Shown: positions 4,544 through 39,148 of the stretch, piece after piece
Layout of the letters: every line of letters starts with the position of its first letter
Position numbering within the stretch: the stretch's first letter is position 1
From: Ralstonia pickettii DTP0602
GTDB lineage: Bacteria; Pseudomonadota; Gammaproteobacteria; Burkholderiales; Burkholderiaceae
DNA length: 64,000 nucleotides
Assembly (NCBI GenBank): GCA_000471925.1
Contig: CP006667.1
Coordinates: 3,658,001 to 3,722,000, forward strand
Direction: 5' to 3'
The notes under the pieces: model-generated
The model's database searches: none
The model's input: the letters and a program-made list of their open reading frames with translations, nothing else
Told to the model about the DNA's origin: nothing
Position numbers and translations under genes: made by a program

Positions 4544-4567
4544 GCCGGCACCGACGGACGCGCTGCC

Positions 4568-4966: not shown

Positions 4967-4990
4967 CCCTGACCCGCGTGCCAATGACAA

Positions 4991-5036
4991 AAGCCCTGTG
5001 ACGGCGACATGCCGTCACAGGGCTTCTTGTTTTTCG
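4991..5036. terminator. bidirectional rho-independent terminator
   Basis: A perfect 15-base-pair stem (4991-5005 with 5011-5025, loop gacat) is followed by a T-rich run on the plus strand and preceded by an A-rich run for the minus strand. It separates the convergent chelatase gene and cobA. Confidence 0.9.
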
Positions 5037-5050
5037 GGGACTGCGCGGAG

Positions 5051-5851: not shown

Positions 5852-5878
5852 CTGTTGCCCCTTCCCGTTCGTTACCGA

Positions 5879-7183: not shown

Positions 7184-7209
7184 GTTGAATTCCTTTGCTG
7201 CGTCCGGGA

Positions 7210-8175: not shown

Positions 8176-8188
8176 TTTTGTACCGGCC

Positions 8189-18083: not shown

Positions 18084-18168
18084 GCCCGGGTGGTGAAACA
18101 GGTAGACGCAGGGGACTCAAAATCCCCCGCCGCAAGGCGTGTCGGTTCGAGTCCGACCCCGGGCACCA
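18084..18168 (+). tRNA. tRNA-Leu (anticodon CAA)
   Basis: The 85-base sequence folds as a class II tRNA: acceptor GCCCGGG pairs with CCCGGGC, the anticodon stem GGGGA/TCCCC holds the loop CTCAAAA (anticodon CAA, reads UUG), a long variable arm follows, the T arm is GTCGG-TTCGAGT-CCGAC, and the CCA end is encoded. Its 3' end is the integration target of the island that follows. Confidence 0.95.
18146..18168 (+). repeat. attL: tRNA-Leu 3' end
   Basis: TTCGAGTCCGACCCC plus GGGCACCA, identical to the right-hand copy at 39127-39148 except for one extra G. It covers the T loop to the CCA end, the usual crossover site for P4-type integrases. Confidence 0.88.
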
Positions 18169-18344: not shown

Positions 18345-19574
18345 ATGCCTACCACTGACATTGCGATCAAGAACGCGATCAAGGCCTCCAAGGACGCTGA
18401 CAAACCGCTCAAGCTGTTCGATGGCGGCGGGCTGTTCCTGCTCATCACCCCTGCCGGGGGGCGCTACTGGCGACTCAAGTACCGGATGGCCGGGAAGGAG
18501 AAATTGCTAGCGCTGGGCGTCTATCCTGATGTGGGGCTGGCGGCGGCGCGAAAGAAGCGCGAGGTGGCGCGCGAACGGGTTGCGGCAGGGGTAGACCCGG
18601 GCGAAGCGAAGAAGGCCGAACAGCGGGCCGCCAAGCTGGCCGCAGACAATTCGTTCGAGGCCGTGGCGCGTGACTGGCTGGAGGAGCGCAAAAGCACGGT
18701 GGAGGAGGCGCAGCACATTAAGACCCTGGCCCGCCTGGTGAATGACGTGTTTCCATGGATCGGCAACAGGCCAATCACGCAGATCGACGCACCGGAGATT
18801 CTGGCGGTACTCAAGCGGATCGACCGCCGGGGCGCTCGTTTTTCCGCCCACCGTGTCAGGTCGGAAATCAGCCGGGTATTCCGCTATGCAATCAAGGAAG
18901 GCAAAGCCAAGTCCGACCCGGCCAAAGATCTGATCGGCGCCATACCGCCAGCGGTGGAAACGCACTTTGCCGCCATCACGGACCCTGCCAAGGTAGGTGA
19001 GATGCTGCGCGCCTTCGAAGGGTTCAGCGGCACGTTCCCTGTGCTGTGCGCGCTCAAGCTGGCCCCCCTTCTGTTCGTGCGGCCTGGCGAGCTTCGCAAG
19101 GCTGAGTGGGCACAGATTGACCTAGAACGGGGGGAGTGGCGCTATCGAGTCAGCAAGACCAAGACTGATCATCTCGTCCCGCTTGCCACCCAGGCCGTGG
19201 CGATCCTGCGCGAGTTGCACGCTCTGACCGGCAATGGTCAATACGTCTTCCCTGGCGCGCGCTCAGCTCTGCGCCCCATGAGCGAGGCGGCAATCAATGC
19301 GGCGCTGCGGCGGCTTGGCTATGACACGCGCACCGAGATTACCGGCCACGGCTTCCGGGCGATGGCTCGCACGATCTTGCACGAGGAATTGCACCAGAAG
19401 CCGGAGGTAATCGAGCATCAACTAGCGCACACTGTGCCGGACGCCTTGGGAGCCGCATACAACAGAACGCGGTTCATAAAGGAACGGCGGGAGATGATGC
19501 AGGCGTGGGCCGACTATCTTGACGAGTTGAAGCGCGGTGCCAAGGTGTTTCCCCTTACCACCCCTGCCGCCTGA
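18345..19574 (+). CDS. intP4: P4-type tyrosine integrase
   Basis: The 409-residue protein has the N-terminal arm-binding domain of the P4 family (DUF4102-like; KLFDGGGLFLLI, GRYWRLKYRMAGKEK near residues 22-52), a core-binding domain at about 100-190, and the catalytic domain with RPGELRKAEW (Arg near 245), HGFRAMART (His-x-x-Arg near 338) and the tyrosine in GAAYNRTRF near 370. It recombines the element with the tRNA 3' end. There is no ribosome site before the ATG; an inverted arm repeat sits there instead. Confidence 0.93.
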   Translation: MPTTDIAIKNAIKASKDADKPLKLFDGGGLFLLITPAGGRYWRLKYRMAGKEKLLALGVYPDVGLAAARKKREVARERVAAGVDPGEAKKAEQRAAKLAADNSFEAVARDWLEERKSTVEEAQHIKTLARLVNDVFPWIGNRPITQIDAPEILAVLKRIDRRGARFSAHRVRSEISRVFRYAIKEGKAKSDPAKDLIGAIPPAVETHFAAITDPAKVGEMLRAFEGFSGTFPVLCALKLAPLLFVRPGELRKAEWAQIDLERGEWRYRVSKTKTDHLVPLATQAVAILRELHALTGNGQYVFPGARSALRPMSEAAINAALRRLGYDTRTEITGHGFRAMARTILHEELHQKPEVIEHQLAHTVPDALGAAYNRTRFIKERREMMQAWADYLDELKRGAKVFPLTTPAA

Positions 19575-20783: not shown

Positions 20784-20867
20784 ATGGAAAAGAAGGAGAC
20801 CACTACTCGCGCCGCGACCGAGAGCGGCGTCTTAGCCGTCGGCATCCACCTGACGGAGGGCGCATGA
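20784..20867 (+). CDS. 27-codon small protein coupled to the primase gene
   Basis: The frame MEKKETTTRAATESGVL (27 residues in all) starts one base after the AlpA stop, and its TGA overlaps the primase ATG (ATGA). Tight coupling on both sides supports translation. It has no recognisable domain and may serve only to deliver ribosomes to the primase start. Confidence 0.45.
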   Translation: MEKKETTTRAATESGVLAVGIHLTEGA

Positions 20868-24133: not shown

Positions 24134-24259
24134 TGCCGGAACGCGCAAACGCCCATGCCGGCATCCAGGCTGTGGTGCGCTAGTCACCAATCAGGACAGC
24201 CTCTGTCCACTGCCTCTCCCAGCGATGCGGCAGCGCGTGAATTCACAGCGCGGCAAGTC

Positions 24260-24360
24260 GCCCATGACATGCACGCTGTCGATGTAAGCCCTTTGGTTCC
24301 CTCCTAGCCTATCAACCATCTGGTGTATGGATTGCGTGACGACGATTACTTAGTCTGTAG
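24260..24360 (+). repeat. diverged direct repeat, copy 1 (gene remnant)
   Basis: This stretch shares GCCCATGACATGCACGCTGTCG and ATCAACCATCTGGTGTAT with 25205-25306. In one frame it reads AHDMHAVDVSP, a stop, then INHLVYGLRDDDYLV, which parallels INHLVYSMHDGDYLA of copy 2. Both look like decayed 3' ends of one duplicated gene that I cannot name. The rest of the gap 24134-24400 shows nothing else. Confidence 0.6.
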
Positions 24361-25147: not shown

Positions 25148-25306
25148 ATGAGCAAAGAGAACGAACGCAAGCGTGGCGGCATTTCTAAGAAGTGGACAAA
25201 AGGCGCCCATGACATGCACGCTGTCGCTGTAGTTCTCCAATTCCTTAATCAACCATCTGGTGTATAGCATGCACGACGGCGACTACCTAGCTGCAAGAGG
25301 TTTGCC
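25148..25306 (+). repeat. diverged direct repeat, copy 2 (gene remnant)
   Basis: An open frame from 25148 (MSKENERKRGGISKKWTKG, 39 codons to 25267) contains AHDMHAVAVVLQFL, then a one-base shift is needed to continue into INHLVYSMHDGDYLAARGLPIMP. The core 25205-25306 is the second copy of the repeat at 24260. The frameshift shows this copy is also broken. Confidence 0.55.
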
Positions 25307-25726: not shown

Positions 25727-26347
25727 CTTCGCCCATTCCCTTTTATGATCTTTATAATGAGGTAGAAGAGGAATGCGACGGTTATCCCGAACGCGCGCTC
25801 GTGATTGGCTTTATTGAAGGCGCACGTGCTATCTGCGACCACGTGTGACATCCTGCTAGTCACCCAACACGGTAACGGCCCGCCCATGCGCCGGGCCACC
25901 TACGACGGCTTTCGCCTTGCGCCGCTGGCGCACCAGAATGCGCTCAGCGCGCACGCACAGCCCCGCAGGCACGGGGTTCCCTGCAGCGCGCTCCTCCGGC
26001 GCACTATGGGCCGCGTAGCGGGCCGGCGCCCGCCCTCGTGGAAAGGGGGAGGGGGCATCACATCTCTACATGCTGCACTGCCGCGACCGCGCGGGAGCGG
26101 TCATTTTTACCGCCGCGATTCTGAGGATGGGGGGAAGAGCTTTCTCTCCACTTTTCGTTCTTGCTGCAATGGCGTGCGGGGCTCGCTTTGGTCGGCGGCT
26201 CGGCCCAGTTAGCGGAAGCCCGAAGCGTCCTGGCAGTCGGGTACCGGCCGATAGATGTGCCAGATGCGGGCACGTATATGATTTCGTTTTGCCTACCGCG
26301 AATCTTGCTCACTAATTTAGCGAGCACTGCCGCGAGCTTAGGGGGAG
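25727..26347. other. 621 bases without a supported gene
   Basis: The first 120 bases contain a start-less open fragment ending at 25848 (FIEGARAICDHV). From about 25880 to 26200 base composition changes and the plus frame (RLAPLAHQNALSAHAQ, GITSLHAALPRPRGSGHFYRR) recalls Ash-like sequences common in P4-type elements, without a credible start. A hairpin GACCGC/GCGGTC with a following T run at 26085-26108 may end transcription. The rest shows nothing I can support. Confidence 0.4.
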
Positions 26348-27922
26348 TCACTGGCCAGCTGGTAGTTCACGAGCTAGCGCAGCGCCCAATTCAACGCAGA
26401 GATGCATGGCTGCATACGCAGTACCCGGATCGATGGGCGCGCCTTCTTGATGTTGCCCAAAATCCCCGAAGGCATGGACCGCGTTCATCAGAACATAGGT
26501 TCCTTTCGTGACGTGTTTCGCGCAAGGTTTGCTCTTGTCAGTCCCAGTCATCAAGTTGAGCAAGCGCACACGGTGGACCCCTTGCGGGAATGTCGTCTGC
26601 CACTCATCGACTCCGCGTTCCTGATTGTACTTCCAGGTCGACATCCAGCCAGAAGGAATGGACTTCTCTCCTAGCTCTGCCTTCCAGATCAGCTCAAATG
26701 CCTGGTTCACGATGCCGCGAACGTGGCTCAGAAACACGTCAGGATGGTCCGGCAAGTCCTCGGTGTTTCGTTCAAGGTAGCGCCTGAGCGTTGAGTCGAT
26801 GCCGACGATCTGCGTGATCCTGCGCTCCAGTACACCCTTGAAGTGTTTCTGGTAAGCGTCGGCGGTGCCGAACAAGCGAACAAGTGCGTTGCCTTCGTGC
26901 GGATGCTCCTCCAGGTACTTGCCGAGCAGTCGGCTCGCTCTCTGCAGCCTGTTACCCGCTGATTGCACGAATCCACGCTCAATCAGCGGCTCAGCATCCG
27001 CGGTTGCGATGCCAGCGCGTGCCACAGATCCCTCGTCCAGAACTCGCCGCAGCAGGTCTTGGCAAGAAGGCGGACAGTCGCTCCAGAGATCATCCAACGT
27101 GTCGCGCAGCGCGGGGAATGCACTGTCGCACGCGCCTCGCATTGCTTCGGGGCTGACTGATCCCGCTGCACTCATCTCGCAAACGGCGTTTAGAACACCG
27201 AGCATCAATACGGGAAATCCGTTACTGGCCTTCCAGAGCTCTGTTTGGGCACCAACTGCGAGTTCCAGATCCGGCTGAGCAGCCAGAACTTCAATCAGGT
27301 CGCTTTCATCAAAACAACTGACTCGCACCGGGGTCGGATCAAAGATGTTCCAGAAATCGCTGGTCTGTGCGTCTGGGTGGCGGATCAGGTCCCGAAGCGT
27401 GCGTCGACTGGCAGTGATCAATCGCAGACTGGGCTTGAGCGCGAGTTCCCGAAGCTGATCCCACAAATTGCGCGTCAGCTGACTCTTGGACAATGGCTTG
27501 TCAAACCCATCCATGATTGCCAACACTTTGGCACCCTCGTCCTTCAGAATGTCAAGTACTTCGGCGATGTCATGATAGGGGTTGCCCTGCGGATTCCTAA
27601 GATGGTCGGCGTAGTCCGGGTGGCTACTTTTCAGCACGGCAGACAGCTCTCGCGCTAGGCGTTGCATGAAAAGCTCGTCGGTCCCCGGTGTCTGATGACC
27701 GAGGTCCCACAACACGACGGCTGAATAAGGGGAGCCGGTCTTTCGCAATCGCGCAGCAAGCTCATGCAAGATCACCGTCTTGCCCGCAAATCTCGGCCCG
27801 ACAACTTGCAAGTGATCCGGAATCTCCTTAGTCAGCGAACCCATCATCTTCTGCAAAATGGCCGCCCGTCCGATCATGGGCGGCACCGAGGTGCCTAGTA
27901 TGGGAAATCTGCTGTCAGGCAT
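26348..27922 (-). CDS. AAA/STAND-type ATPase, last gene of the restriction cassette
   Basis: The 524-residue protein has a P-loop VGPRFAGKTV near residues 41-50, a Walker B-like LAIMDGFDKPL near 134-144 and a sensor-like LITASRR near 168. The acidic residue that normally follows the Walker B Asp is Gly (DGFD, against DEFD in the upstream fusion protein), so hydrolysis may be impaired. The two ATPases share the order GREE/GRAA-P-loop-D(E/G)FDK-(T/A)SRR and look like paralogues that could act as a pair. A helical region follows to about 400, then an unassigned domain. Its ATG overlaps the stop of the fusion gene by 8 bases, so they are coupled. Confidence 0.75.
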   Translation of the reverse strand: MPDSRFPILGTSVPPMIGRAAILQKMMGSLTKEIPDHLQVVGPRFAGKTVILHELAARLRKTGSPYSAVVLWDLGHQTPGTDELFMQRLARELSAVLKSSHPDYADHLRNPQGNPYHDIAEVLDILKDEGAKVLAIMDGFDKPLSKSQLTRNLWDQLRELALKPSLRLITASRRTLRDLIRHPDAQTSDFWNIFDPTPVRVSCFDESDLIEVLAAQPDLELAVGAQTELWKASNGFPVLMLGVLNAVCEMSAAGSVSPEAMRGACDSAFPALRDTLDDLWSDCPPSCQDLLRRVLDEGSVARAGIATADAEPLIERGFVQSAGNRLQRASRLLGKYLEEHPHEGNALVRLFGTADAYQKHFKGVLERRITQIVGIDSTLRRYLERNTEDLPDHPDVFLSHVRGIVNQAFELIWKAELGEKSIPSGWMSTWKYNQERGVDEWQTTFPQGVHRVRLLNLMTGTDKSKPCAKHVTKGTYVLMNAVHAFGDFGQHQEGAPIDPGTAYAAMHLCVELGAALARELPAGQ

Positions 27923-30900
27923 CTTCTTCCTCCGCCTCAGTGCGGGCACGGCTTGCCACCACATCGGCATCTTGTTGTTGTTCGATCCAATCCGTCATCA
28001 ACGGAATCGCTAAGCGGTATTGGCCATCGCCGATCTCGCCAGAGAGCTCTACCAGTTCCAACTCGCGCAGATAGGTCAGATCGGCATCCAGTGCTTCGTC
28101 GTCGACGTCCACGCCGACCTGTGCCAATTGCTCGTGCAAGGTGCCGAAACCAATGTGCGTTCCCTGCTTGAAGCTCAGCGCGCAAAGCAACAGGATCAGT
28201 TGTCGGCGATGACGCCCTCTATCTGGACCCAAGCCGGCGTAGTCCCACAAGCTGGCGAAATGCTCATTGTCCCGTACCAGCCCGAGTGCCGCATCATTGA
28301 CGACGCTCGCGGTGATTGAGCGGCTCTTGGTCTGCACGGCGTAGTCGAACACCCTGTTGCACAGGCACTGCATCAGGTAGGGATGCCGTGCCGTGACCTC
28401 GATCACACGCTCGACGGCCTCCTGCGAAAAGGCCAGTTGATCACGCACGGGCTCGGTGACCACCTTGCGCGCGCTCTCCGTATCGAGCGCCGTAACCGGA
28501 ATGCTCGTTCCCAGGCCATACAGCGCAGACCAGTACTCCTCGCGTAGGCGCTTCAGGCGGCGCGATCCGGTCAGGATGGCCGAGAACGTTGGATATGTCT
28601 GGATCAGGAAACGAATGTTCTCTGGTACCTGAGGCGAAGTCACACCATTGTCGATACCCTCCTGGAGTTTGTCGAACTCGTCGAGCATCAAAACCAAGCC
28701 AAGCCCCAGGGGCTCCAGAACGGCCAGCACCAATTCCAGATAGTCGCGGAAGTCTGCGAACGGTGACTCGGTACTGATGCCCTCCCGACAAGCGCGCGCA
28801 ACACCCAGCGCCGGCTTGCCGGCAGCAATCGCATGGCCATTGGGCAGCGGCACTTCAACACCCAGCTTGGTCAGGGCGGTGGCGATACTGCGCGCAATCT
28901 CGCGAAACACCTCAGCCGTGGGCACACCAACGACTTGCGAGGCACCTTCGGCCCCTTGCAGGCTGGAATAGGCCGCCAACCAGCCCGGGATGGCGGCTCG
29001 CCCTTCAAGATGCTTGAGGATCGAGGTCTTGCCGGCCCGCCGATTGCCTTCCAGCAGCACCACGTTGCCATGGGTCGCGATCTGGCGGCTAATCTTGCCG
29101 ATCAGTTCTTCGCGGCCGTAAAAGACACTGTGGCCGTGCTGCGGCTCCAGCGGGCTGCCAGTCACGTAGGGGCTGCCGCCCAGATCGGCGGCCAACGTGC
29201 TTGCCGCTTGCTCGGGTTCGGCCACGCGGATTGCCAGCTCGATCTCACCCTCGACCACTTGGCCAGACAACGTGCGTGCCTGCCACTGCAGGCGCAACGA
29301 AAGGTCACCCCCTTGTTTGGGTACGTCCCCTCGCAAATTGATCGTGAAAGCGCTTCGCTCCGCGAGATAGGGCGCCTCGGCGATGCCCCAATCAGGCTGC
29401 GTTTCGATGCGGACATTGCGCAGTGGCAAAGCTCCCTGGTTCTCCAGGTCAACAGAAAACTCTGCGAAGCTGCCCGCTACCAGCGATGCGGGCGCGGCGC
29501 GTACCTGCAGGCCGGTCGCATCGACAAGATCCGAAATGGCGGCGTGCAGCCATTCGCGCAAGCGCTCGGCAACGGCACGCGCCTGCGATTCGGCCGCCAG
29601 ATGGCTGGTGGTCTGCTCCAGCATGGCTATGACCCCGCGCTCCGCATCCTGCAACACGTTCAGCAGCCCAGGCCCCGGCGGAATCTGGACCACGCCCGCC
29701 AGCGGTAGCAGCGCTTGCGTCAGCGGCGTCAACCAACGCGCCGCTTGGCTGCCGACTTGCTCCTGATCCAGCCAGCGCCGCGCCGTACCGGCCAAGAGCA
29801 CAATGGGCTCGAACTGGCTGAGTGCAGGTGTGTCATCCAGGCCGCCCACAAACTTGGGCACCTTACCGTCCAAGTCGGCCAGCCAGGCGGTGAGGCGATC
29901 CGATTCGCTGCTGCCCATGGCCTCCGCCAAAAATGCCAGCGCATCGGTGCCAAACTCGCGGAATTGCGCAGCGGCACGAGTCTGCATGGACAGCGGAGGC
30001 AGGGGCACCGGCAAGCCATCGAGCACCGCCCGGTTGAGGTGCTGAATTACCGCCCCGCGCGACTGTGCGGCCAGCCAATTCTGACAGGCCGGGCTCGCAA
30101 GATATGCCAGCAGAAAGCCAGCGTCCAGTCGCTCCTGGTTCGTGCGCAGCACATAAAGCCCGTTCGCCGCGACCGACCCGACCGCACCATTGCGTACCAA
30201 GGCGGCCTTGCCGATGGTGCCGGATTTGGACACCAGCACATCACCGGGCAACAAGGCCCACCGCTGTTCTTGGCTTGCTAGCTCAGGCCGCAACCAGCTT
30301 GAAGTGCGGCCCACCTTGCCTTGACTCAAGTCCTTGATCCGCACATAACCCACGGCGCGCTCGAGCGGCGGCTCATCGAGCAAGTCAGTCGACTTGATGG
30401 CGCGCCCGGCAAACACCTGCCCCACCTCGGACAAGCGTGTCAAGGCGCCCGCCTCACCCAAGGCCTCCTTGAGGCTAACCAGCAGTTCATCCAGCCCCCC
30501 TTTTTCCCGACGCCGGGGCGACAAGTCCCAATCCGCTGCAGCCAGCTCGTTTGTCGTCACCTCCCACACCGAGCGCGCCAGAACTCCGGTGCCTAGGGTA
30601 CCTTCGGCAACGCCGGGCGGCAGCTCCGGCCCATTGCGCAGCTCAGCGCGCCGAACTTCGTTGGCAAGCTGTTGCGCAATATCTGCCCGAATCTTCGGCG
30701 CCTTGCGGCCCGACCTTTGCTCAAACAAGGCGCTCGCATCGGCCATTCGCACCCGGCTGATACCACCTTGCTTGCTGAGCACCAACAAGTTGCCCTTGAC
30801 GCTGGTGTAGGGTGCAAAGGCGCCAGCAGGCAAGCCGATCACGGCTTCCACCTGCCCCTGTTCCAACAAGTAGCGGCGTAACTCACGCTCGGCCCCGCCG

Positions 30901-31901
30901 CGAAACAAAAAGCCCTCTGGCACGGCGATGACCGCCCGCCCGTGAGGTTTGAGTTGCGAGAGGGCGTGCTGAACGAACAGGCCCGTGCTGTCGTTAGTGG
31001 GGATGGCAAAGTGCTGGTAAAGCCAAGGTTCGCGGCCGGCTTTGGCACCAATGGGGGGGTTGGCCAACACCACATCAAAGCCTTGGAGGCTGGGGCTGCT
31101 TAGCGATTCGCGCTCCAAGCTGTTACCCAGCTCCAAGCGTGGCGCATCGATACCCGCCAGCAACATGCGCGTGAGGCCGATCAGATAGGCGCTGCCATTG
31201 ATCTCGATGCCGGCAACATCAAGCACGGCGCCGGGACGGCGCAGTTCGTTGCGGCTGCGCTCGGCCTGCTGCCAGGCCGCCACCAGAAAATTGCCCGAAC
31301 CGAAGCACGGGTCATACACGCGCTCGCTTGGCTGCGGGTTCGCCAGCGCAGCCACCAGACGAGAGATATTGATCGGCGTCGCGTACTGGCCGTCGTAGGG
31401 GTCGCCGGTCTCGGCGATCACCTGATCGAACACATCGAGCAGCGCCCGCCGCTCGACCGGGGTTTCGAAGGGCAGCCCGCCCACCCAGTGCACTAGGTCA
31501 TGCAGGTAGACGAAGTTCACCTCCAGTACACGGCGCAGAGGGGCAGCCAGGGCGTGCAGGTAGCCGGCCACCGGGTGTGCCGCATCGCCGCGCAGACCTT
31601 CCACGTACTGCGCCAGTTCGCGCAACCTGGCAGCGATGGTATAGGGGTTATCCAAACGCGCCCAGTGCCGCCACTGCAAGGGCGCGGGCAGCAGCGGCTG
31701 GTAAGTCCGGTCTTCGAAGACGGCCATCGCCTCCTGTTCTGTGTCCTGCAGGTCGGACCAGCGCAGCAGCAGGAAGGCCGCAAAGATCTCGCGGACCAGC
31801 GATCTGGACTCGCTGATTGGCATCTCGCCCCTCAGCACGTCCAACGCAGCAACCCACTTGGTGGTGTCCTCGTGCAGTTCTTTGTCTTGCACGTTCCTCA
31901 C
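27915..31901 (-). CDS. N6-adenine methylase + target-recognition domain + AAA ATPase fusion
   Basis: The 1328-residue protein is a chain of domains. Residues 1-430 are a type I HsdM-like methylase: motif I YDPCFGSGNF near 196 and motif IV ANPPIGAK at 280-287. Residues 440-650 resemble half an HsdS (SEVGQVFAGRAIKSTDLL, YVRIKDLSQGKVG, LPGDVLVSKSGTIGKAAL, LPVPLPPLSMQ). About 800-895 is a CARDB-like beta-sandwich. From 925 there is an ATPase with FYGREEL, P-loop EGNRRAGKTS (951-960) and Walker B LVLMLDEFDKL (1069-1079), and a winged-helix tail. NPPI lacks the aromatic residue normal in NPPY/F/W. The start is GTG, overlapping the hsdS stop. Confidence 0.85.
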   Translation of the reverse strand: MRNVQDKELHEDTTKWVAALDVLRGEMPISESRSLVREIFAAFLLLRWSDLQDTEQEAMAVFEDRTYQPLLPAPLQWRHWARLDNPYTIAARLRELAQYVEGLRGDAAHPVAGYLHALAAPLRRVLEVNFVYLHDLVHWVGGLPFETPVERRALLDVFDQVIAETGDPYDGQYATPINISRLVAALANPQPSERVYDPCFGSGNFLVAAWQQAERSRNELRRPGAVLDVAGIEINGSAYLIGLTRMLLAGIDAPRLELGNSLERESLSSPSLQGFDVVLANPPIGAKAGREPWLYQHFAIPTNDSTGLFVQHALSQLKPHGRAVIAVPEGFLFRGGAERELRRYLLEQGQVEAVIGLPAGAFAPYTSVKGNLLVLSKQGGISRVRMADASALFEQRSGRKAPKIRADIAQQLANEVRRAELRNGPELPPGVAEGTLGTGVLARSVWEVTTNELAAADWDLSPRRREKGGLDELLVSLKEALGEAGALTRLSEVGQVFAGRAIKSTDLLDEPPLERAVGYVRIKDLSQGKVGRTSSWLRPELASQEQRWALLPGDVLVSKSGTIGKAALVRNGAVGSVAANGLYVLRTNQERLDAGFLLAYLASPACQNWLAAQSRGAVIQHLNRAVLDGLPVPLPPLSMQTRAAAQFREFGTDALAFLAEAMGSSESDRLTAWLADLDGKVPKFVGGLDDTPALSQFEPIVLLAGTARRWLDQEQVGSQAARWLTPLTQALLPLAGVVQIPPGPGLLNVLQDAERGVIAMLEQTTSHLAAESQARAVAERLREWLHAAISDLVDATGLQVRAAPASLVAGSFAEFSVDLENQGALPLRNVRIETQPDWGIAEAPYLAERSAFTINLRGDVPKQGGDLSLRLQWQARTLSGQVVEGEIELAIRVAEPEQAASTLAADLGGSPYVTGSPLEPQHGHSVFYGREELIGKISRQIATHGNVVLLEGNRRAGKTSILKHLEGRAAIPGWLAAYSSLQGAEGASQVVGVPTAEVFREIARSIATALTKLGVEVPLPNGHAIAAGKPALGVARACREGISTESPFADFRDYLELVLAVLEPLGLGLVLMLDEFDKLQEGIDNGVTSPQVPENIRFLIQTYPTFSAILTGSRRLKRLREEYWSALYGLGTSIPVTALDTESARKVVTEPVRDQLAFSQEAVERVIEVTARHPYLMQCLCNRVFDYAVQTKSRSITASVVNDAALGLVRDNEHFASLWDYAGLGPDRGRHRRQLILLLCALSFKQGTHIGFGTLHEQLAQVGVDVDDEALDADLTYLRELELVELSGEIGDGQYRLAIPLMTDWIEQQQDADVVASRARTEAEEEDA

Positions 31902-33082
31902 AGCTCCCCCGCGAAGGCCTTGCGGAGGATGGCCTCACGCATGGCTCCACTCTCGGACATCACGGCGCTCAGTTCAGCAACGAGTTGCGCAGCCTGAGCT
32001 TCACGCTGCTCCATCTGTTCCAAGAGGCGCGCTTGCTCAGCGATTGCCGGCACCGGAAACGGAATCGAACGCAAATTCTCCGAATTGATGTTGAATTGCC
32101 CCGCAGATGTCCGCCTGCGACTGTCAATCTCTGCGCGACCGTTCGTGCTGTTGAGAAAGTAGGCCAGATAACGCGGCAGGACCTTCGTTGTGTCGACGCG
32201 AACTCGGATGAGGTACGAGGCGAAGCCGAAAGAATGCCCTAGTCCCTCACCGTTGAATACGGCGCAGCGCCCCACCAAATCTCGGCTGCCATTGGTTCGG
32301 ACAAACAGCAAGTCGCCACTTGAAAGGCGAACTCGGTCTTCGTCCGCCTTGGTCAGATTGCAGTACTTCAGGTCATCGAAGTTAACGGCCCCTTGAGCAA
32401 CGTTCGGGATACGCAAGATTGGAGTACCGGTAGCCTCTGTATGGCACTTTTGCGATGTGCCGTACCGAGTCTCCGTCGAGATTTCGCCAATGGTCATCAC
32501 CGGGGCGATGTTTGCTTGCGAAGCAAAAACTTCGTTCAACACAGAGGGTAAGACGGCCGTTGCTTCTTGAAAGGTCTCGCGCCTGAGCCTCTCAATTTCC
32601 TCCACCCTCTCCATACACGCCTTTATGCGGGCGACGATGCGGCGTTGCTCGTCTCGCGCTGGAAAGGTGAAATCAATTCCACGAATGGATTTGGCCGAAA
32701 GGTGTTTAACCGTCACATATGGCGTTGCGTCTTCAATTCGCTTAAGGTGCGCATTGATGCCAAACCCTACAAACTCCGGTTCGATTTCATTTGAAAAATC
32801 AATGAGTCTACAAACTCGCTGATTCAGAAGGCTATCGTCGCCGGACCACCGATAGCAGCGGAATTCGCCGTCCATACCGATCAGGAGCTCCCCCGCGCGA
32901 ACGACGTATTTGTCGTCGAACTCCCCATTAAATCGAATGGCTGTATCAGAGCCATTCTTCAGATCACGAATACGGATTAGCGGCATCCCTTGGATCTCGG
33001 AAAACTTATCCGACTCAAAGGCAAAGCCATTCTGTACATCAAGTAGCTCGCCAAGCTTCTTGGTATTCCAGCCAGTCAGCAT
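31898..33082 (-). CDS. hsdS: type I restriction-modification specificity subunit
   Basis: The 394-residue protein has two target-recognition halves: the first starts KKLGELLDVQNGFAFES and ends with the conserved helix ARDEQRRIVARIKACMERVEEI near residue 160; the second starts APVMTIGEISTETRYGTS near 207 and ends AIAEQARLLEQMEQREAQAAQL near 350. This is the standard two-TRD HsdS that sets the bipartite target of the HsdM/HsdR complex. Its ATG overlaps the hsdM TAA by one base, and the fusion gene starts on its stop codon. Confidence 0.92.
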   Translation of the reverse strand: MLTGWNTKKLGELLDVQNGFAFESDKFSEIQGMPLIRIRDLKNGSDTAIRFNGEFDDKYVVRAGELLIGMDGEFRCYRWSGDDSLLNQRVCRLIDFSNEIEPEFVGFGINAHLKRIEDATPYVTVKHLSAKSIRGIDFTFPARDEQRRIVARIKACMERVEEIERLRRETFQEATAVLPSVLNEVFASQANIAPVMTIGEISTETRYGTSQKCHTEATGTPILRIPNVAQGAVNFDDLKYCNLTKADEDRVRLSSGDLLFVRTNGSRDLVGRCAVFNGEGLGHSFGFASYLIRVRVDTTKVLPRYLAYFLNSTNGRAEIDSRRRTSAGQFNINSENLRSIPFPVPAIAEQARLLEQMEQREAQAAQLVAELSAVMSESGAMREAILRKAFAGEL

Positions 33083-34563
33083 TAATCGTCCCCTTCGAGC
33101 AGGAATTCGAGCTCGTCCAGAAGCTCTGTAATCCGGGCCTCTTTGGTCTTGATCGACTCCACCAGTTCCAAGGCTGGCCGGTGTTCGTAGTCATCCACCC
33201 GGTTTGGGTTTTTGGCCGAAAGGTCATAGCCCTTAGCCACAATGGTGGCCAGCGGCACAGTCCAGGAGTTCTCACCTTCCACACGGCTTTGCCACTTCTC
33301 CAGAAAGTCGGGGAGTTGGTTGCCTGCAATGGGCTTGCGCGTCTGCTTCAGCTCGAAGCCGTCGTTGGTCAGGTCGTAATACCAGATGCAGTCCGTGCCC
33401 GAGCCGTCTTCGGCGCGGTCGAAGAAAATCACGTTTGTTTTGACACCGGTGTAGGGCAGGAAGCAACCCGCCGGCAGCGACAGTATGGTGTGCACCTTGA
33501 ACTGCTCTAACAGTTCCTTGCGCACCTTTTGATCCGGCCCCCCCCGGAATAGCACGCCTTCGGGGATGACGACTGCGGCGCGGCCGCCCTTGGCCAGGTT
33601 GGCCATGATGTGCTGCAAGAACAGGCACTCGGTAGCGCTGCTGCGCACGCGGAAGTTGGTTTGCAGCTCCTGCGCCATTTTGCCGCCGTAAGGTGGGTTG
33701 GCGAGGATAACCTGGTATTTGTCTTTCTCGGCGACGTTATGGCTGTGAACTTCCAGCGTGTTGGCCAGCTCCAGGTTGGCACCCTCGATGCCGTGCAGGA
33801 TCATGTTCATCGAGCCCAACAGATAGGTCAAGGGCTTGAGCTCCAGGCCAAAGAAGGCCTTGTGCTGCAAATCGTCCAGTTGTTTACCGCTGAGGGTGCT
33901 GTGATGGCGCAAGTAATCCGCGGCCTCGCCCAAAAAACCGGCCGTGCCGAAGCAGGGGTCGTACACGCGCTCGCCGGCCTTTGGCTGCACCACCTGCACC
34001 ATGGCGCGGATGATGTGGCGCTGAGTGTAGAACTCGCCGGCGTAACCGGCCGAGTCGGCAGCCACGCGCTTGAGCAGGTCTTCGTAAATCTCAGACAGGA
34101 CAATGACATCGGTCTCGCTGGAGAAGTGCAGCTTGTCGACCTGCTGCACCACCTTGGCAAAGCTCACACCCCGGCGGCCGTAGTTGCGCACGTTGTCGAA
34201 TATTCGGCGGAAGCGCTGGGCCAGCGCATCATTGCCCAGGCCTTTGGTCCGGTCAGGGCTGGTGAGCTTGATCCACAGTTTGCCGTCCACGAACTCCAGC
34301 ATCTCGTCGGGGTGGTCGGTGTCCTTGGCCCAATGGCTCCAGGCATACTCGCCGGCTAGACGACGCTCGTAAGGCGTGTCATCGAAGGCGGCTTCCTGCT
34401 CCTTGCGCGTTTCAGCTTCGTCAAAGGCCTTGAGGAAGAAAAGCCACGCGAGCTGCTCAACATAGTTGCGGGCATCCACGCCCTCGGCATTGAGCTGATC
34501 GCAGGCGTTCTTTACGATCTGCTGCACTTCCTGGCGGCGGTGATCGGTGGTGTTTTGGGTCAT
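33082..34563 (-). CDS. hsdM: type I restriction-modification N6-adenine methylase
   Basis: The 493-residue protein has the HsdM N-terminal helical domain (KNACDQLNAEGVDARNYVEQL), motif I YDPCFGTAGF near residue 198 and the catalytic NPPYGGKM near residue 286. GEFYTQR (residue 176) is the usual TRD-proximal signature. It methylates adenine at the site chosen by HsdS. Unlike the fusion protein downstream, its motif IV is canonical. It lies 33 bases after hsdR. Confidence 0.95.
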   Translation of the reverse strand: MTQNTTDHRRQEVQQIVKNACDQLNAEGVDARNYVEQLAWLFFLKAFDEAETRKEQEAAFDDTPYERRLAGEYAWSHWAKDTDHPDEMLEFVDGKLWIKLTSPDRTKGLGNDALAQRFRRIFDNVRNYGRRGVSFAKVVQQVDKLHFSSETDVIVLSEIYEDLLKRVAADSAGYAGEFYTQRHIIRAMVQVVQPKAGERVYDPCFGTAGFLGEAADYLRHHSTLSGKQLDDLQHKAFFGLELKPLTYLLGSMNMILHGIEGANLELANTLEVHSHNVAEKDKYQVILANPPYGGKMAQELQTNFRVRSSATECLFLQHIMANLAKGGRAAVVIPEGVLFRGGPDQKVRKELLEQFKVHTILSLPAGCFLPYTGVKTNVIFFDRAEDGSGTDCIWYYDLTNDGFELKQTRKPIAGNQLPDFLEKWQSRVEGENSWTVPLATIVAKGYDLSAKNPNRVDDYEHRPALELVESIKTKEARITELLDELEFLLEGDD

Positions 34564-34596
34564 GTTGATTCCTGTTGCTCTTTGGGCCCGGCCGCA

Positions 34597-36888
34597 TTAG
34601 GCGGCCATGGGCACGTAAAGGTGCTTCTTCACCAGCTCAAGGTCGGCCTTAAGCAGCGCCGGGCCGCCGTAGCGCTGGGTCAGCGTGGCGAAGCTGCCGA
34701 ACTGTTCGGCAAACTGCGGTGCGCTATAGGTGCGAGCCTGCTCGAGGTCGTCGATGCCAAATAGGCGGTAGTGGTCGAGCGCGGTTTGCCACAGGTGGGT
34801 CTTGAAGCGCTGGCTCTCGGCCAGCGCGGCTTCGCCCAAGTGGTCGAGCAGCCAGATCTGGTCTTCGTCCCACAGGCGGTTGGCACGGTCGGCGCGGTTG
34901 GGTACACGTGGCAGCTGGAAGCCGATCTTGGCCAGGATGTCCACGTCGTCGGCATCGGGCAGGTCGAGGTAATGCCGGAAGGCTGAGGGATAAATGTCAC
35001 GATCGTGCAGGGCCTCACGCAATTCTTGGCGGCTTCCTTTGTCGATCCAGATGCGCAGCAGCTCATCCATTCCCTTGTGGCTGACATCCAGGATGAACTC
35101 GCGCGACTGCTCGGTGTACTCGTCAAACGGCACCTTGCGGCCATCGGCCAGACAGACATAGCGGTTCTCGGTGGAGATGACCACCGAAACGCCTTCCCCT
35201 ATGGGTTTGGGCGTAGTGTCCTCGCCCTTCTTCTTGGGCTTGCTGCCGGCGGCCGTGGCCTTTTGCCGGTTGGCGGGATGGCCGTCGAATTCGGCATCTT
35301 CCAACTGGCTGGCGCCGGAGTAATCGAAGATGGTGAAGTACCGCTTGTTGATGTCCTCGCACAAGCGGGTGCCACGCCCCTTCATCTGCTTGTAAAGGAT
35401 GGCACTGCGCAGCGGGCGCACGAACACCACGTTCTTAACGTCGGGCGCGTCAAAGCCCGTGGTGAGCAGATCGACCGTGACGGCCACGCGCGGGTTACTG
35501 GGGCCGACAACGGCAAAGTTGCGCTCTAGCTGATGGCTATTGCGCTCCGCCCGTGTGATGCGGGCAGCGTAGTCGTTGCTACCGGACAGTCGGCGCAGTT
35601 CTTGCGCCATGAAGGCGGCATGGGTGTCGTCCACGCAGAACACGATGGTTTTTTCATCGCGCAGCTCGTACTTGCCCAGCACCTCCCACAGGTCTTCGGC
35701 GATGGCTTTGGTTCGATCCGGCATGCGGATGTCGCGCTCGAAATTGGCGGTGGTGTAGCGCTTGCCGTCCAGGCCAGTGTAGCCGTCTTCATCGACGTTG
35801 GTGATGCGCTCTTCTAGCAGGTAGGGCACGAGGAAGCCATCCTCGATGGCCTGCTTGAGGCTATAGGTGAAAACCGGATCGCCAAAGTAATGCTGGGTGT
35901 CGCGGCGCTTTTCGTCGTCTGTTAGCGCCCGCTCGCCTTCTTCCAGCTCCCGTGGTGTGGCGGTAAGGCCCAGCTGCAGGGCAGCGCCAAAGTGTTCAAG
36001 CACGCCAAACCAGTCGCCAAATCCTGAGCGATGACACTCGTCCACGACCACCAGATCAAAGAAGTCCGGGTCGTAGTGCTCATAGACCTTCTTTCCATCC
36101 AGTTCCTCGTCAAGGCTCTGGTAATTGGCAAAGAACATCTTGCCCACCAGATGCTGCCCTTTGGCGACGGTATCCTTGTCGATCTGAACACGCTCGGAAG
36201 CCGAATAGGCACTGAACGCCCGATAAGCCTGGTCCTTGAGGCTATTGCGGTCAGTCAAGAACAGCACGTGTTCGCGCTTAAGCGCCTTGCCATTCAATAG
36301 CTTCCACACCAACTGGAAGACGGTGAAGGTCTTGCCCGTGCCGGTGGCCATGAGCAGCAACACACGGTCATTGCCCTGGGCAAACTGCCACAGTGCCTTG
36401 TTAATGGCCACGTCCTGATAGGGGCGCACGCCTTTGCGCGAGACCTGATCCATGTAATAGCCGGCGGCGAACGCCCCCTCCCAGCGGGACCAGTCGACCG
36501 ACACGCCCATACGGGCGACCAACTCGTCAGGCGACGGCGGCGCGCTCAGCGGCTCGAAATCGCCGGTGTCGTTATCCGTCAGGATCCAGTCGTTGCCGTT
36601 CGAGGCAATTGAGAAACGCAGGGAGAGGCGGCGTGCATAGCGCGATGCCTGCTGCATGCCATCGGCAGCACTTTCACCCTCGGATTTAACCTCCAGAATG
36701 GCAAGTGGCACTCCTTTGTAGCGCAGTAAGTAATCCGCGATGATCGACTGCGTTTCGTCGTACATCGCCTCACCAGTGAGGTTGACCCGTCCAGGCCCGA
36801 TGCGAAGTTGGTCCTGCCACGACCAACCGAGCGCCGACAGGCGGGGCTCAATTAGCTCTTTGCAGGTCAGTCGTTCGTTGCGTGCCAT
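34597..36888 (-). CDS. hsdR: type I restriction endonuclease, motor subunit
   Basis: The 763-residue protein has an N-terminal PD-(D/E)xK nuclease (DETQSIIADYLL near 44, LAILEVKSEG near 63), a P-loop MATGTGKTF near residue 180, DECHRSGFGDWF near 284 and helicase motif VI QMKGRGTRLCED near 496. A Lys-rich linker KPKKKGEDTTPKP precedes the C-terminal domain. It is of the shorter EcoEI-type length. It cuts unmodified DNA after translocation. As first gene after the sigma54 promoter it would be the most directly controlled. Confidence 0.93.
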   Translation of the reverse strand: MARNERLTCKELIEPRLSALGWSWQDQLRIGPGRVNLTGEAMYDETQSIIADYLLRYKGVPLAILEVKSEGESAADGMQQASRYARRLSLRFSIASNGNDWILTDNDTGDFEPLSAPPSPDELVARMGVSVDWSRWEGAFAAGYYMDQVSRKGVRPYQDVAINKALWQFAQGNDRVLLLMATGTGKTFTVFQLVWKLLNGKALKREHVLFLTDRNSLKDQAYRAFSAYSASERVQIDKDTVAKGQHLVGKMFFANYQSLDEELDGKKVYEHYDPDFFDLVVVDECHRSGFGDWFGVLEHFGAALQLGLTATPRELEEGERALTDDEKRRDTQHYFGDPVFTYSLKQAIEDGFLVPYLLEERITNVDEDGYTGLDGKRYTTANFERDIRMPDRTKAIAEDLWEVLGKYELRDEKTIVFCVDDTHAAFMAQELRRLSGSNDYAARITRAERNSHQLERNFAVVGPSNPRVAVTVDLLTTGFDAPDVKNVVFVRPLRSAILYKQMKGRGTRLCEDINKRYFTIFDYSGASQLEDAEFDGHPANRQKATAAGSKPKKKGEDTTPKPIGEGVSVVISTENRYVCLADGRKVPFDEYTEQSREFILDVSHKGMDELLRIWIDKGSRQELREALHDRDIYPSAFRHYLDLPDADDVDILAKIGFQLPRVPNRADRANRLWDEDQIWLLDHLGEAALAESQRFKTHLWQTALDHYRLFGIDDLEQARTYSAPQFAEQFGSFATLTQRYGGPALLKADLELVKKHLYVPMAA

Positions 36889-36958
36889 TGGATGTGCCTT
36901 GTTGTTAAGTTCTCTATGTCGGCCTGGGCCATAAGAAAAGTTGCGATTGGGCTCTTAT

Positions 36959-36976
36959 AAGCAGGAGGCGTGCCAA
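36959..36976 (-). promoter_or_regulatory. sigma54 (-24/-12) promoter for the hsdRMS-fusion-ATPase operon
   Basis: The minus strand reads TTGGCACGCCTCCTGCTT. GG and GC are exactly ten bases apart, the -24 element TTGGCACG is a full match and the -12 element CTGCT matches 4 of 5 positions of TTGCW. It begins one base after the stop codon of the sigma54 activator and about 75 bases before hsdR; transcription would start near 36950. Confidence 0.85.
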
Positions 36977-38473
36977 CTAGCCAACCCCATATTTTTGCAG
37001 CCAATTGCTCAGAGTTTGGTAGCTGCCCAGGCCAAGCAGGCGGGCTGCCTCGGACTTGTTGCCATGGGTCTGCGCCATCGCGCGCTCAAGGTAGTGGCGT
37101 GCCACGTCTCCGATGATTTCTGGCAGAGAAATGGCTTGGTCTAGAGGGCGCCCAAGAACAGACTCAATCTCGGGAACGACGGTCACCGCCAATGACTCTG
37201 CGACGTCTTGAGTCGTGATCCGGTCGCCAGTCGCCCAGATACTGGCGCGGAGCAAGGTATTGTGAAGCTCTCGCACATTGCCGGGCCAAGGATGCTGAAT
37301 CAGAAGATTTTTTGCACCGACATCAAGTTTTTTATGCCTAAAGCCTGGTTGAGTTGATGCCTCCGCATTGATGTTGGCCAGCATCGAGTCAATCAACAGA
37401 CCCAGGTCGCCTTCTCGCTGCCGAAGCGGTGGCAGCAGCAAAACGCCCACGGCCAGGCGGTGGAACAGGTCTTCACGGAAGCGGCCCGCCCGAATCTCCT
37501 CCGGCAGGACGCGGTTGGTTGCGGCGATGACCCTTATGTCGATCGGCTTGGCTCGGGTAGCGCCGACACGTGTGACTTCTCGCTCCTGCAAGACCCGAAG
37601 CAAACGGACTTGGGAGGCTAGGGGCAACTCCCCGATTTCATCTAGAAACAGGGTGCCGCCGTCAGTGGATTCAAAGTAGCCAGCTCGCGCGACCGTTGCG
37701 CCAGTAAACGCCCCTTTTTCATGACCGAAGAGCTCTGCATCGACCAGTTCTTGGGGTATGGCACCGCAGTTGACCGCAATGAACGGCTTGCCACTTCGGA
37801 CACTGGCTTGGTGGATCGCGCGGGCAAAAAGCTCCTTTCCGGTCCCGGACTCACCCTGGATCAGCACCGGCACATCTCGCAGAGCCAACCGGTGGGCCAT
37901 GGCAACGGTGCGCCTCATTGCCGCACAACGATGAATGATCGCGGTAAAGGCCGGCGACTCTGGCGGTAGGCCCTGCATCAGCCGTGTTAGCGCTTCGTCG
38001 GCATTTTTGTCAGCACCAGGCGAGAACTCTGCAGACAGCTCAAACGGGATACGGATTTCCTTGACACCCTGCTCGCGCGATGACTCGATCAACCTAGCCG
38101 GGTAACGCGTCTTAGCCAGCAACAACCAGATGGCGGCCATCGCCGGCGTGCCCGGACTGAGATGGAACGTCAGGGGAGCAGAAGGCGAAGCATTCCGAAT
38201 TTCTTCGATCACGGCGATGGCCGCCTTGAATATCTCCTCAAAACTGGTAGGGCTGGTGAGCTTGACCTGGTGCGCGGTAGCGACCACATTGGACTGCTCG
38301 CCTAGCCAGCGCACATACGCTCGAGTTGCAGGCGCGGCGTGATCGGACAACAGATGAACTGCCTCAAAGGCGAATGCCTTGACTGCTCCGAGGATGGGCC
38401 CTCGCTCTCCGGAGCCAGGCGACTCGGATGCGCGCAGGTCTGTATTGCCCAGCCAGGCCAGCAGAATCGACAT
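36977..38473 (-). CDS. CARF-like/sigma54 activator (RtcR architecture)
   Basis: The 498-residue protein has three parts. Residues 1-150 begin SILLAWLGNTDLRA and include LTFHLSPGTPAMAAIWLLLA (101-120), the nucleotide-pocket pattern of CARF-like domains as in RtcR. Residues 175-410 are the sigma54-activating AAA+ domain: GESGTGKE at 207-214, the sigma54-contact loop GAFTGA at 254-259, and DEIGELPL. Residues 455-498 are a Fis-type helix-turn-helix (NKSEAARLLGLGSYQTLSNWL). It is adjacent to restriction genes and a sigma54 promoter, not to rtcAB, so RNA repair is unlikely to be its target. No ribosome site is clear before the ATG. Confidence 0.88.
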   Translation of the reverse strand: MSILLAWLGNTDLRASESPGSGERGPILGAVKAFAFEAVHLLSDHAAPATRAYVRWLGEQSNVVATAHQVKLTSPTSFEEIFKAAIAVIEEIRNASPSAPLTFHLSPGTPAMAAIWLLLAKTRYPARLIESSREQGVKEIRIPFELSAEFSPGADKNADEALTRLMQGLPPESPAFTAIIHRCAAMRRTVAMAHRLALRDVPVLIQGESGTGKELFARAIHQASVRSGKPFIAVNCGAIPQELVDAELFGHEKGAFTGATVARAGYFESTDGGTLFLDEIGELPLASQVRLLRVLQEREVTRVGATRAKPIDIRVIAATNRVLPEEIRAGRFREDLFHRLAVGVLLLPPLRQREGDLGLLIDSMLANINAEASTQPGFRHKKLDVGAKNLLIQHPWPGNVRELHNTLLRASIWATGDRITTQDVAESLAVTVVPEIESVLGRPLDQAISLPEIIGDVARHYLERAMAQTHGNKSEAARLLGLGSYQTLSNWLQKYGVG

Positions 38474-39126
38474 TAACTAGAACTTTTCGTGCAGAAAGAT
38501 AAGAAAGATTGTACTTTACCCGAGTATGGCTTCGTGATCGATCAGCGCCTGAAAACGCATGCTCACCGCCCAGCTCTCTGCACTGAGGTCGTCGACGAGT
38601 GGAACATGCTCCATACCTGATCGGGTCGGTTTCCCTACAGCGCCGCATCAAGACACGATTCGGCCGCGATCTTTGGTGACCATGCGAGCCCAACGACGAC
38701 GTAAATGCGTGAACCCGTCGGCCTCTGACTGGATAGTCGCCCCATTCGTCGTCCAGCCCGCCCAATTTCACATGTGCGAGGGTACCGATCCGTCGAATGC
38801 TTAACATGCACCTGATGTGGCTGGGGACAGCCACGCAGGCTGCTGCTGTTGATCGGCTTGCCGATTTGGCCGAGGCTGTCCCCGCCAAAGACTCGATAGA
38901 CAGAATCAATAAATAGTCAACCCATCGCGCAGTCTCATAAGCGGAACAACAGCGAGCTTGAGTCACGGGTAGCTAATTGTGATTTATGTAGCGCTTTTTG
39001 TCTTGACCCAGTCGAGGGGTTTCGCGAATAGGTGGCTGCAGCGATACGAATCTGGGGGTACATTTGGGGGTACATGACACAAGAAGGATCTACAACACGC
39101 CGTACGTCTTAGCTTTTCCGGCTGTG
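38474..39126. other. right end of island without a supported gene
   Basis: About 650 bases hold only short unconvincing frames. An inverted repeat GGGGACAGCC (38823-38832) / GGCTGTCCCC (38874-38883) could form a hairpin or be the end of a lost insertion. The promoter of the activator gene should lie just right of 38473, where the minus strand has TACAAT in an AT-rich patch near 38508. Two arm-type repeats are at the right edge. Confidence 0.4.
39053..39075. repeat. right arm-type integrase repeats
   Basis: Two direct copies of TGGGGGTACAT (39053-39063 and 39065-39075), 12 bases apart, match the repeats inside the left end of the island at 18272-18304 and the inverted copy at 18332-18342. Confidence 0.65.
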
Positions 39127-39148
39127 TTCGAGTCCGACCCCGGCACCA
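39127..39148 (+). repeat. attR: copy of the tRNA-Leu 3' end
   Basis: TTCGAGTCCGACCCC plus GGCACCA; the tRNA copy has GGGCACCA. A 13-base A run follows directly at about 39151, and the chromosomal remnant of vapC after it. Confidence 0.85.

Follow-up and report, generated by a model that had tools for sequence, protein, structure and literature searches.

Two papers describe systems close to the locus considered here. RtcR-like proteins unlinked to rtc genes are often associated with restriction-modification (R-M) systems (PMC4012209, 2014), and an RtcR homologue heads superoperons in which HsdR, HsdM, HsdS and other defence genes run in one direction (PMC11090510, 2024), RNA ends being proposed there as the signal. 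A cassette of this kind is carried by Ralstonia pickettii DTP0602 (genome of 8.1 Mb in three contigs), in a stretch of 64,000 nucleotides of contig CP006667.1 (positions 3,658,001 to 3,722,000), hereafter the window. It consists of six minus-strand open reading frames (ORFs) in the order activator, hsdR, hsdM, hsdS, fusion and second ATPase, the fusion joining a methylase-like domain, a single target recognition domain (TRD) and an ATPase (Table 1). The apparent novelty lies in the two genes at its end, i.e., the fusion and the second ATPase, hereafter the pair. It is tentatively proposed, with chances that are not quite even, that the cassette is an inducible two-layer DNA defence in which the pair would be a fixed-specificity, ATP-driven DNA sensor licensing HsdR.

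An activator beside restriction genes is not a novelty, RtcR-like activators next to R-M genes being already published (PMC4012209, PMC11090510). With the RtcR-like activators described in the former (Makarova 2014) the first protein of the cassette shares a CARF domain, an NtrC-type AAA+ domain (GAFTGA) and a helix-turn-helix (HTH). On the contrary, it is distant from RtcR proper (331.7 bits for an equivalog cut-off of 650 with NF038308), and rtcAB are not among the six cassette genes. The RtcR-headed superoperons have the same layout, with the activator upstream of HsdR, HsdM and HsdS, but the pair is not in their description in the available text of PMC11090510. BREX and BREX-related systems also pair N6-methylases with ORC/STAND ATPases (PMC12839542). 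Compared with BREX and with the DUF499-centred systems of that paper, matches to PglX reach here 29 and 21.9 of 500 bits, and no PglZ, BrxA, BrxC, BrxL or DUF499 was detected in the six proteins (Pfam; best 25 padloc matches per protein).

CoCoNuTs associate a McrB-type GTPase, a CnuH-type helicase and a coiled coil, and the six proteins have no such match, nor a McrBC-type one, in Pfam. EcoAI-like type I systems share with the cassette HsdR, HsdM and a two-TRD HsdS; here are added a sigma54-like promoter, the fusion and the second ATPase. The gene set of MADS (methylation-associated defence system) comprises a methylase, an S-like subunit and an ATPase; the matches found here to MAD2, MAD5 and mad8 are partial, not exceeding 94.1 bits for MAD2 (cut-off 720) and 64.5 bits for MAD5 (cut-off 400). 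For the ATPase part of the fusion and for the second ATPase, the library scans name no family beyond weak matches to mad8 (16.5 bits), STAND_TPR (17.8 bits) and PDC-S27 (12.5 bits), in agreement with the initial annotation, which knew of no named system with this gene set. The pair is also undescribed in the literature searched, in which preprints and most subscription papers were lacking.

Gene order and the putative sigma54 promoter

The six ORFs announced as a single-strand block are all present and their domain calls were upheld. Gaps amount to 88 nt between activator and hsdR and 33 nt between hsdR and hsdM, while the following genes overlap: hsdM and hsdS by 1 nt, hsdS and the fusion by 4 nt, the fusion and the second ATPase by 8 nt with the corrected start of the latter. 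This start is probably the ATG at 27922, which gives 524 aa, because 103 of the 119 homologues listed measure 520-530 aa (range 507-544, median 523).

Table 1. Features of the window (positions in nucleotides of the window, or in residues of the fusion protein).
Feature	Position	Strand	Description and basis
tRNA-Leu(CAA), left end of the predicted island	18084..18168	+	ARAGORN
Tyrosine integrase of the island	18345..19574	+	Pfam Phage_integrase, Phage_int_M, Arm-DNA-bind_3
Second ATPase	26348..27922	-	524 aa from ATG at 27922 (26348-27970, 540 aa, as called)
Fusion (methylase + TRD + ATPase)	27915..31901	-	1328 aa, GTG start; N6_Mtase, Methylase_S, AAA_16-like
Fusion: HsdM-like domain, degenerate	residues 1-470		motif IV NPPI
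Fusion: single TRD	residues 485-650		Methylase_S
Fusion: helical part	residues 660-795
Fusion: all-beta domain	residues ~796-900		AlphaFold2 (AF2) model
Fusion: ORC/STAND ATPase	residues 908-1195		AAA_16-like, just under the Pfam cut-off; Walker A present
Fusion: tail, winged-helix-like	residues 1196-1328		read by eye
hsdS, two TRDs	31898..33082	-	394 aa; Methylase_S, two stretches
hsdM	33082..34563	-	493 aa; N6_Mtase 223.5 bits, HsdM_N
hsdR, EcoAI-like type I restriction subunit	34597..36888	-	763 aa; NF046051, ResIII, HSDR_N, EcoEI_R_C
Sigma54 promoter-like site TGGCACG-CCTC-CTGCT	36960..36975 (reads 36975-36960)	-	hand-made matrix score
Activator, CARF-AAA+-HTH sigma54 type (RtcR_PspF2 family)	36977..38473	-	498 aa; PADLOC PDLC01995
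tRNA-Leu 3' end, orphan copy shorter by one base; probably marks where the island ends on the right	39126..39148	+	sole match in the window
Second ATPase: C-terminal helical domain	residues 338-524 (of the second ATPase)		invariant His

The activator matches the PADLOC model RtcR_PspF2 (PDLC01995) with 657.5 bits, its residues 2-497/498 corresponding to model positions 2-480/481; the PADLOC library gives no cut-off for this model, whose name reportedly goes back to a 2020 classification of CARF domains. CARF-type, Sigma54_activat and Fis-type HTH domains are recognized, and the Pfam matches to RtcR and Csm6-CARF are below the cut-offs. The GAFTGA loop, which contacts sigma54, is found in 21 of 22 aligned activators including that of the window (GSFTGA in the remaining one), and the Walker A motif GE[ST]GTGKE in all 22. 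Near-full-length matches (at least 447 bits) occur in 7 of 369 sampled genomes of the class, own included, one of them with an internal stop. The genome of the window has one RpoN match, one RtcB match and 22 matches to the activator, and only the activator of the window spans the first 132 residues.

The putative promoter begins 2 nt past the stop codon of the activator, ahead of hsdR. Its score is 16.4 for a maximum of 19.0, and three positions in the window (both strands), itself included, score as high. The best site begins between −15 and +9 nt from the end of the last codon of the activator in 20 of 23 related activator-bearing loci (the exceptions are L024, L028 and L053; loci are designated by L numbers). 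By contrast, none of 28 other sigma54 activators, i.e., bacterial enhancer-binding proteins (bEBPs, a control set that leaves out L070 and L084), has its best site with a score of at least 13 at that placement; 13 of the 28 carry such a site elsewhere, 12 of them at 118-224 nt after the last codon and L078 at 58 nt. Moreover, where no activator is adjacent (14 loci), the top score does not exceed 7.9 in 11. Control of the cassette by the activator and sigma54 is thus well supported by these sequence comparisons, and the initial proposal is retained, namely that hsdR is preceded by an activator of RtcR type with a CARF domain and by a sigma54 site that fits it.

The placement of the predicted promoter belongs to the activator family and is not peculiar to this cassette, since it is also seen with other RtcR_PspF2 activators: among six of them, four precede hsdR, hsdM and hsdS (L101-L103 and L106), and three of the six have a site 4-5 nt past the last codon. 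The hsdR of these other RtcR-type loci score 146-178 bits against that of the window. In L104 and L105 the RtcR_PspF2 activators stand before genes without an hsd match (kinase-like by eye), with best sigma54-like sites 87-88 nt past the last codon. In three hsd loci (L101, 9139-11160; L102, 8468-10189; L106, 5384-7066) an AAA_15-like ATPase is read by eye 3' of hsdS, with no fusion; the stretches noted in these ATPases are NFK... and, in two of them, GPNSAGKS.

Internal sigma70 promoters were searched on both strands of 26300-39000; two matches were obtained (one on the minus strand, at 28675) for 3.4 expected. They do not exceed the expectation and speak neither for nor against a separate expression of hsdM.

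The hsd genes belong to type I: HsdR, HsdM and the two-TRD HsdS all have their Pfam domains, with catalytic motifs in HsdM and, by eye, in HsdR. HsdR matches the EcoAI/FtnUII model NF046051 over its full length with 522.9 bits, below the equivalog cut-off of 550, and its nuclease residues D...ExK can be spotted (DYLL...LEVK). Motif IV of HsdM is intact (NPPY; DPCFG is also present), and it reads [SAC]NPPY in 25 of 25 related loci.

Motifs and specificity of the fusion and of the second ATPase

N6-adenine methylases have [DNS]PP[YFW] as motif IV consensus. The fusion of the window has NPPI, which does not fit, and motif IV departs from the consensus in 24 of 38 loci, several of them having lost the polar residue (VPPW, APPW, QPPV). 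Among 120 close proteins, that of the window included, the canonical motif is found in only 7. Methylase motif I is mostly retained. The fused methylase is thus probably catalytically crippled in the window.

The TRDs of HsdS and of the fusion behave differently. In six close cassettes (15 pairs), the two TRDs of HsdS have median identities of 0.31 and 0.27 (lowest 0.19 and 0.14), whereas that of the fusion has a median of 0.75 (lowest 0.66). HsdS is a mosaic between relatives: between L012 and the window, identity is 0.30 for TRD1 and 0.87 for TRD2. Among 119 close fusion proteins the median identities are 0.84 (TRD), 0.79 (methylase), 0.91 (ATPase) and 0.85 (tail), and in the wider locus set the TRD diverges alongside the rest of the fusion (0.39). 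Because the TRD of the fusion stays similar where those of HsdS diverge, the DNA target that the fusion would read seems not to be swapped between strains.

These results bear on two proposals. The first is that the fusion works as a modification enzyme in addition to HsdM: with M and half-S joined in one protein, it would dimerise and methylate its own site, the ATPases helping a combined restriction complex. It is unlikely, given the NPPI of the window, the non-canonical motif in most loci, and a TRD that remains unswapped whereas HsdS is swapped. The second is the initial idea of a methylation-sensing effector: it is kept as one possibility only and is weakened, the fused methylase being degenerate both in the window and in the 24 loci, with an unswapped TRD.

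The second ATPase is paralogous to the ATPase of the fusion (HHalign probability 98.6, E 6.1e-16). Like the C-terminal part of the fusion, it has the AAA+ fold of ORC/Cdc6-STAND type, and its Walker A is intact; its Walker B has D-G in place of D-E, i.e., no catalytic glutamate, and this G is found in at least 90% of 59 sequences. On the contrary, the ATPase motifs of the fusion are invariant among relatives. The invariant His of the C-terminal domain sits in the motif [RG][ND]xx[QE]H, where the first position is R in 9 of 42 loci and G in the window.

A HEPN identity of this C-terminal domain was considered from its motif (Rx4-6H in HEPN) and from profile matches. By hhalign, DUF4145 gives E 0.054 (probability 1%), Swt1-HEPN E 0.31 and three control regions 0.15-0.20. 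By Pfam, on the domain of 35 members, HEPN comes out in one member at E 0.11 and in one at 0.15, behind an unrelated family at 0.042. A PDB profile search gave nothing below E 0.05 and padloc gave no match for this domain. HEPN/DUF4145 is thus kept as a lead, these matches not being significant. The VIA matches listed barely cover the protein past residue ~343, and among 50,697 phage records the second ATPase is unmatched at E 1e-10.

This lead is central to another proposal, namely that the pair is an independent sensor-effector sharing the sigma54 promoter, the HEPN-like domain of the second ATPase cutting RNA and the resulting cyclic-phosphate ends feeding the CARF domain. Four loci (L040, L043, L044 and L045) have the activator and the pair, no hsdRMS, and a sigma54 site directly before the fusion; L046 is added to them on a 40-bit activator fragment. 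The invariant His, the R present in part of the loci and the first rank of DUF4145 among the five hhalign comparisons are in its favour too, as is the RNA-end feedback proposed for RtcR-linked CoCoNuTs (PMC11090510). Nevertheless, the HEPN similarity is not significant, the R is replaced by G in the window, and the fusion and hsdR co-diverge tightly (0.89, see below). This proposal is also considered improbable.

Distribution of the pair and genomic setting

GTDB species genomes were scanned with two short peptide patterns, giving 45 loci; distant members of the pair are under-sampled because of the shortness and the number of these patterns. In 43 of the 45 the fusion gene is next to that of the second ATPase; L055 and L056, the two weak loci, match the ATPase part with 68 and 29 bits, respectively, and have no second ATPase. 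Upstream DNA is readable in 38 loci, the contig starting too near in L023, L029, L034, L039 and L041. After sorting by hand, the upstream context is: (i) activator and hsdRMS in 19; (ii) hsdRMS in 5 (L017, L026, L036, L047, L048); (iii) activator in 5, i.e., the loci L040 and L043-L046 mentioned above; (iv) hsdR in 1 (L016); (v) neither in 8 (L018-L021, L033, L035, L042, L049). Loci of the last group include L020 and L021, in spite of a weakly similar type I set 4-6 kb upstream (hsdM 164 and 115 bits), as well as L033 and L035, with remnants of hsdS (29 bits) and hsdR (135 bits), respectively.

Several loci are incomplete. The activator is partial in L012 (split frames), L027, L030 and L031 (edges), L054 (last 124 residues) and L046 (last 37); the DNA seen upstream of the cassette is only 0.4-3.1 kb long in L026, L036 and L045-L048; the methylase part is undetected in L042; the fusion of L053 and the hsdR of L022 are split in two frames. 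Next to the pair, hsdR and hsdM that are not split reach at least 1104 and 689 bits, respectively, against those of the window, a floor that sets aside L016 (581), the truncated L034, the L035 remnant and the type I sets of L020 and L021, which are dissimilar. In L036 a transposase-like ORF (5025-6563, by eye) separates hsdM and hsdS in an otherwise complete cassette.

The pair is thus, judging from these neighbourhoods, the constant core and hsdRMS an optional partner, since the former is adjacent in 43 loci while full hsdRMS is missing in 14 of 38. The initial description of the pair as an extra module added to a classic type I system consequently does not hold in this simple form. The pair was nevertheless not found mostly apart from the other genes: activator and hsdRMS are both present in 19 of 38 loci, 30 have one or more of these genes, and 8 have none of them.

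Distances between fusions correlate with those of the second ATPase (0.84, n=44), hsdR (0.89, n=25) and hsdM (0.80, n=24), each with 0 of 2000 permutations, and just at 0.21 with those of hsdS (n=27; 19 of 2000). Ordinary co-residence, i.e., a regulated type I system with two linked but functionally separate defence genes, has little probability: defence genes do cluster, and of the 38 informative loci 14 lack the activator and 14 the full hsdRMS, but the gene order is identical in 19 loci of several phyla, the pair is adjacent in 43, and hsdR and hsdM co-diverge with the fusion. As this order recurs in other phyla with the promoter likewise placed, the cassette is more than a chance assemblage.

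By record title, the hosts are proteobacteria, desulfobacteria, planctomycetes, acidobacteria, a spirochaete, Nostoc, a verrucomicrobium, a Chloroflexota metagenome-assembled genome and others; L015 is the Cupriavidus lacunae record. The family is seldom met: in a sample of 398 genomes from the whole phylum 2 have it (own included), and within the genus 2 of 60 genomes have a full-length fusion. At E 1e-60 the fusion has a match in three of 72,556 plasmid records, each of them from Acinetobacter. On the Acinetobacter plasmid L107, a WYL-domain regulator and a hypothetical gene (6666-8234) are followed by hsdR, fusion (motif IV HPPV) and ATPase; neither hsdM nor hsdS is annotated within 27.9 kb, but the gene table is incomplete and an hsdM may lie elsewhere. 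The hsdR, fusion and ATPase module thus has a different regulator there. In viral contigs, 54 stretches fit a pattern and none codes for a relative. The pair-only locus L018 (Microbulbifer) has two adjoining upstream P-loop genes at 3794-7713 (GETNAGKST and GGYSEGKTS, dynamin-like by eye).

In the window, the cassette sits on a predicted island of ~21 kb inserted at tRNA-Leu(CAA). This is deduced from the tRNA, the adjacent integrase and the orphan copy of the tRNA 3' end, and from congener loci without integrase or fusion pieces. No such copy is expected in shuffles; the best ungapped match shares 18 of 21 bases with the tRNA. Pieces of the integrase and fusion genes have no match in 14 congener loci (~3.7 kb around the right-flank gene), and among 8 congener loci scanned, 6 have tRNA-Leu(CAA) at most about 1.2 kb from this gene. 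Another gene of the island (20864-23341, plus strand) codes for a Toprim_3 and DUF3631 protein (primase/helicase-like), common in integrative elements. Two pairs of direct repeats (32 nt, 94%; 43 nt, 81%), ~940 bp apart (24255-24353 and 25200-25290), suggest that a stretch left of the cassette is duplicated.

Possible mode of action

The proposed defence would proceed in three steps: (i) the CARF activator would bind a ligand (a nucleotide or RNA-derived signal in the initial proposal) and drive sigma54 transcription from the promoter located just after its own stop codon, so that hsdR, hsdM, hsdS, fusion and ATPase would be expressed together, the promoter part being backed by the comparison above; (ii) HsdR, HsdM and HsdS would, by homology, form a conventional EcoAI-like type I enzyme whose specificity changes through TRD swapping in HsdS; (iii) the fusion and the second ATPase would form a heteromeric switch of ORC/STAND type. 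In this third step, the methylase fold and single TRD of the fusion would read one fixed DNA feature, methylation not being needed. The partner should bind nucleotide though devoid of the Walker B glutamate, the motifs of the fusion ATPase being intact. DNA recognition would then lead to ATP-dependent assembly and HsdR would be licensed or recruited. In lineages without hsdRMS another effector would be licensed, possibly the C-terminal domain of the second ATPase.

Should hsdR and hsdM be switched on at the same time, the nuclease may appear while the chromosome is unmethylated; a methylation-independent second check would ease this, which favours a role in either licensing or restraint. Licensing would help explain how a co-induced nuclease and methylase spare an under-methylated chromosome. 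Alternatively, the pair would be an anti-suicide device that, while the cassette is being induced, holds HsdR back from the host chromosome instead of licensing it against invading DNA: R and M induced from one promoter should indeed endanger an unmethylated chromosome, and a fixed TRD beside a variable HsdS could act as a ruler of host sequence. However, hsdRMS stand under the same activator family with no pair in the stretches fetched for L101-L103 and L106, which argues that activator-headed hsdRMS do not need the pair. The anti-suicide role thus has very little probability.

Several observations weigh against the licensing of HsdR under sigma54 control as proposed here: (i) the sigma54 matrix was hand-made from a general consensus; (ii) a sigma54-like site exists in three of the 14 loci that have no activator next to them (L036, 18.0; L020 and L021, 12.4, these two sharing the same site and having fusions 89% identical); (iii) no inverted repeat, as a candidate activator site, was found in 36880-37200 of the window, such pairs being found elsewhere (one in L015, three in L013); (iv) distances between fusion and activator are more weakly correlated (0.36, n=22; 0 of 2000); (v) co-divergence partly reflects joint inheritance of the cassette; (vi) canonical motif IV is kept in 14 of 38 fusion loci, so that catalysis may survive in some lineages; (vii) licensing HsdR cannot be the only job of the pair, because 8 of 38 loci have neither the activator nor matching hsd genes.

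A broader formulation, rather doubtful at present, takes the pair as an unnamed and widely scattered two-gene immune core: a retired methylase with a fixed TRD, having become an ATP-driven sensor of DNA, would license a plug-in effector (hsdRMS, hsdR alone or the HEPN-like domain of the partner), often under RNA-sensing CARF/sigma54 control and with no reliance on its own methylation.

If the proposed mode of action is true, the cassette would be a natural inducible type I restriction system with its promoter located to the base, and the way in which a nuclease and a methylase are switched on without self-cutting of unmethylated DNA would become directly testable. It would also be a case of a methylase fold re-used as a sensor and joined to an ORC/STAND ATPase, which would link R-M to the BREX- and NLR-like style of immunity.

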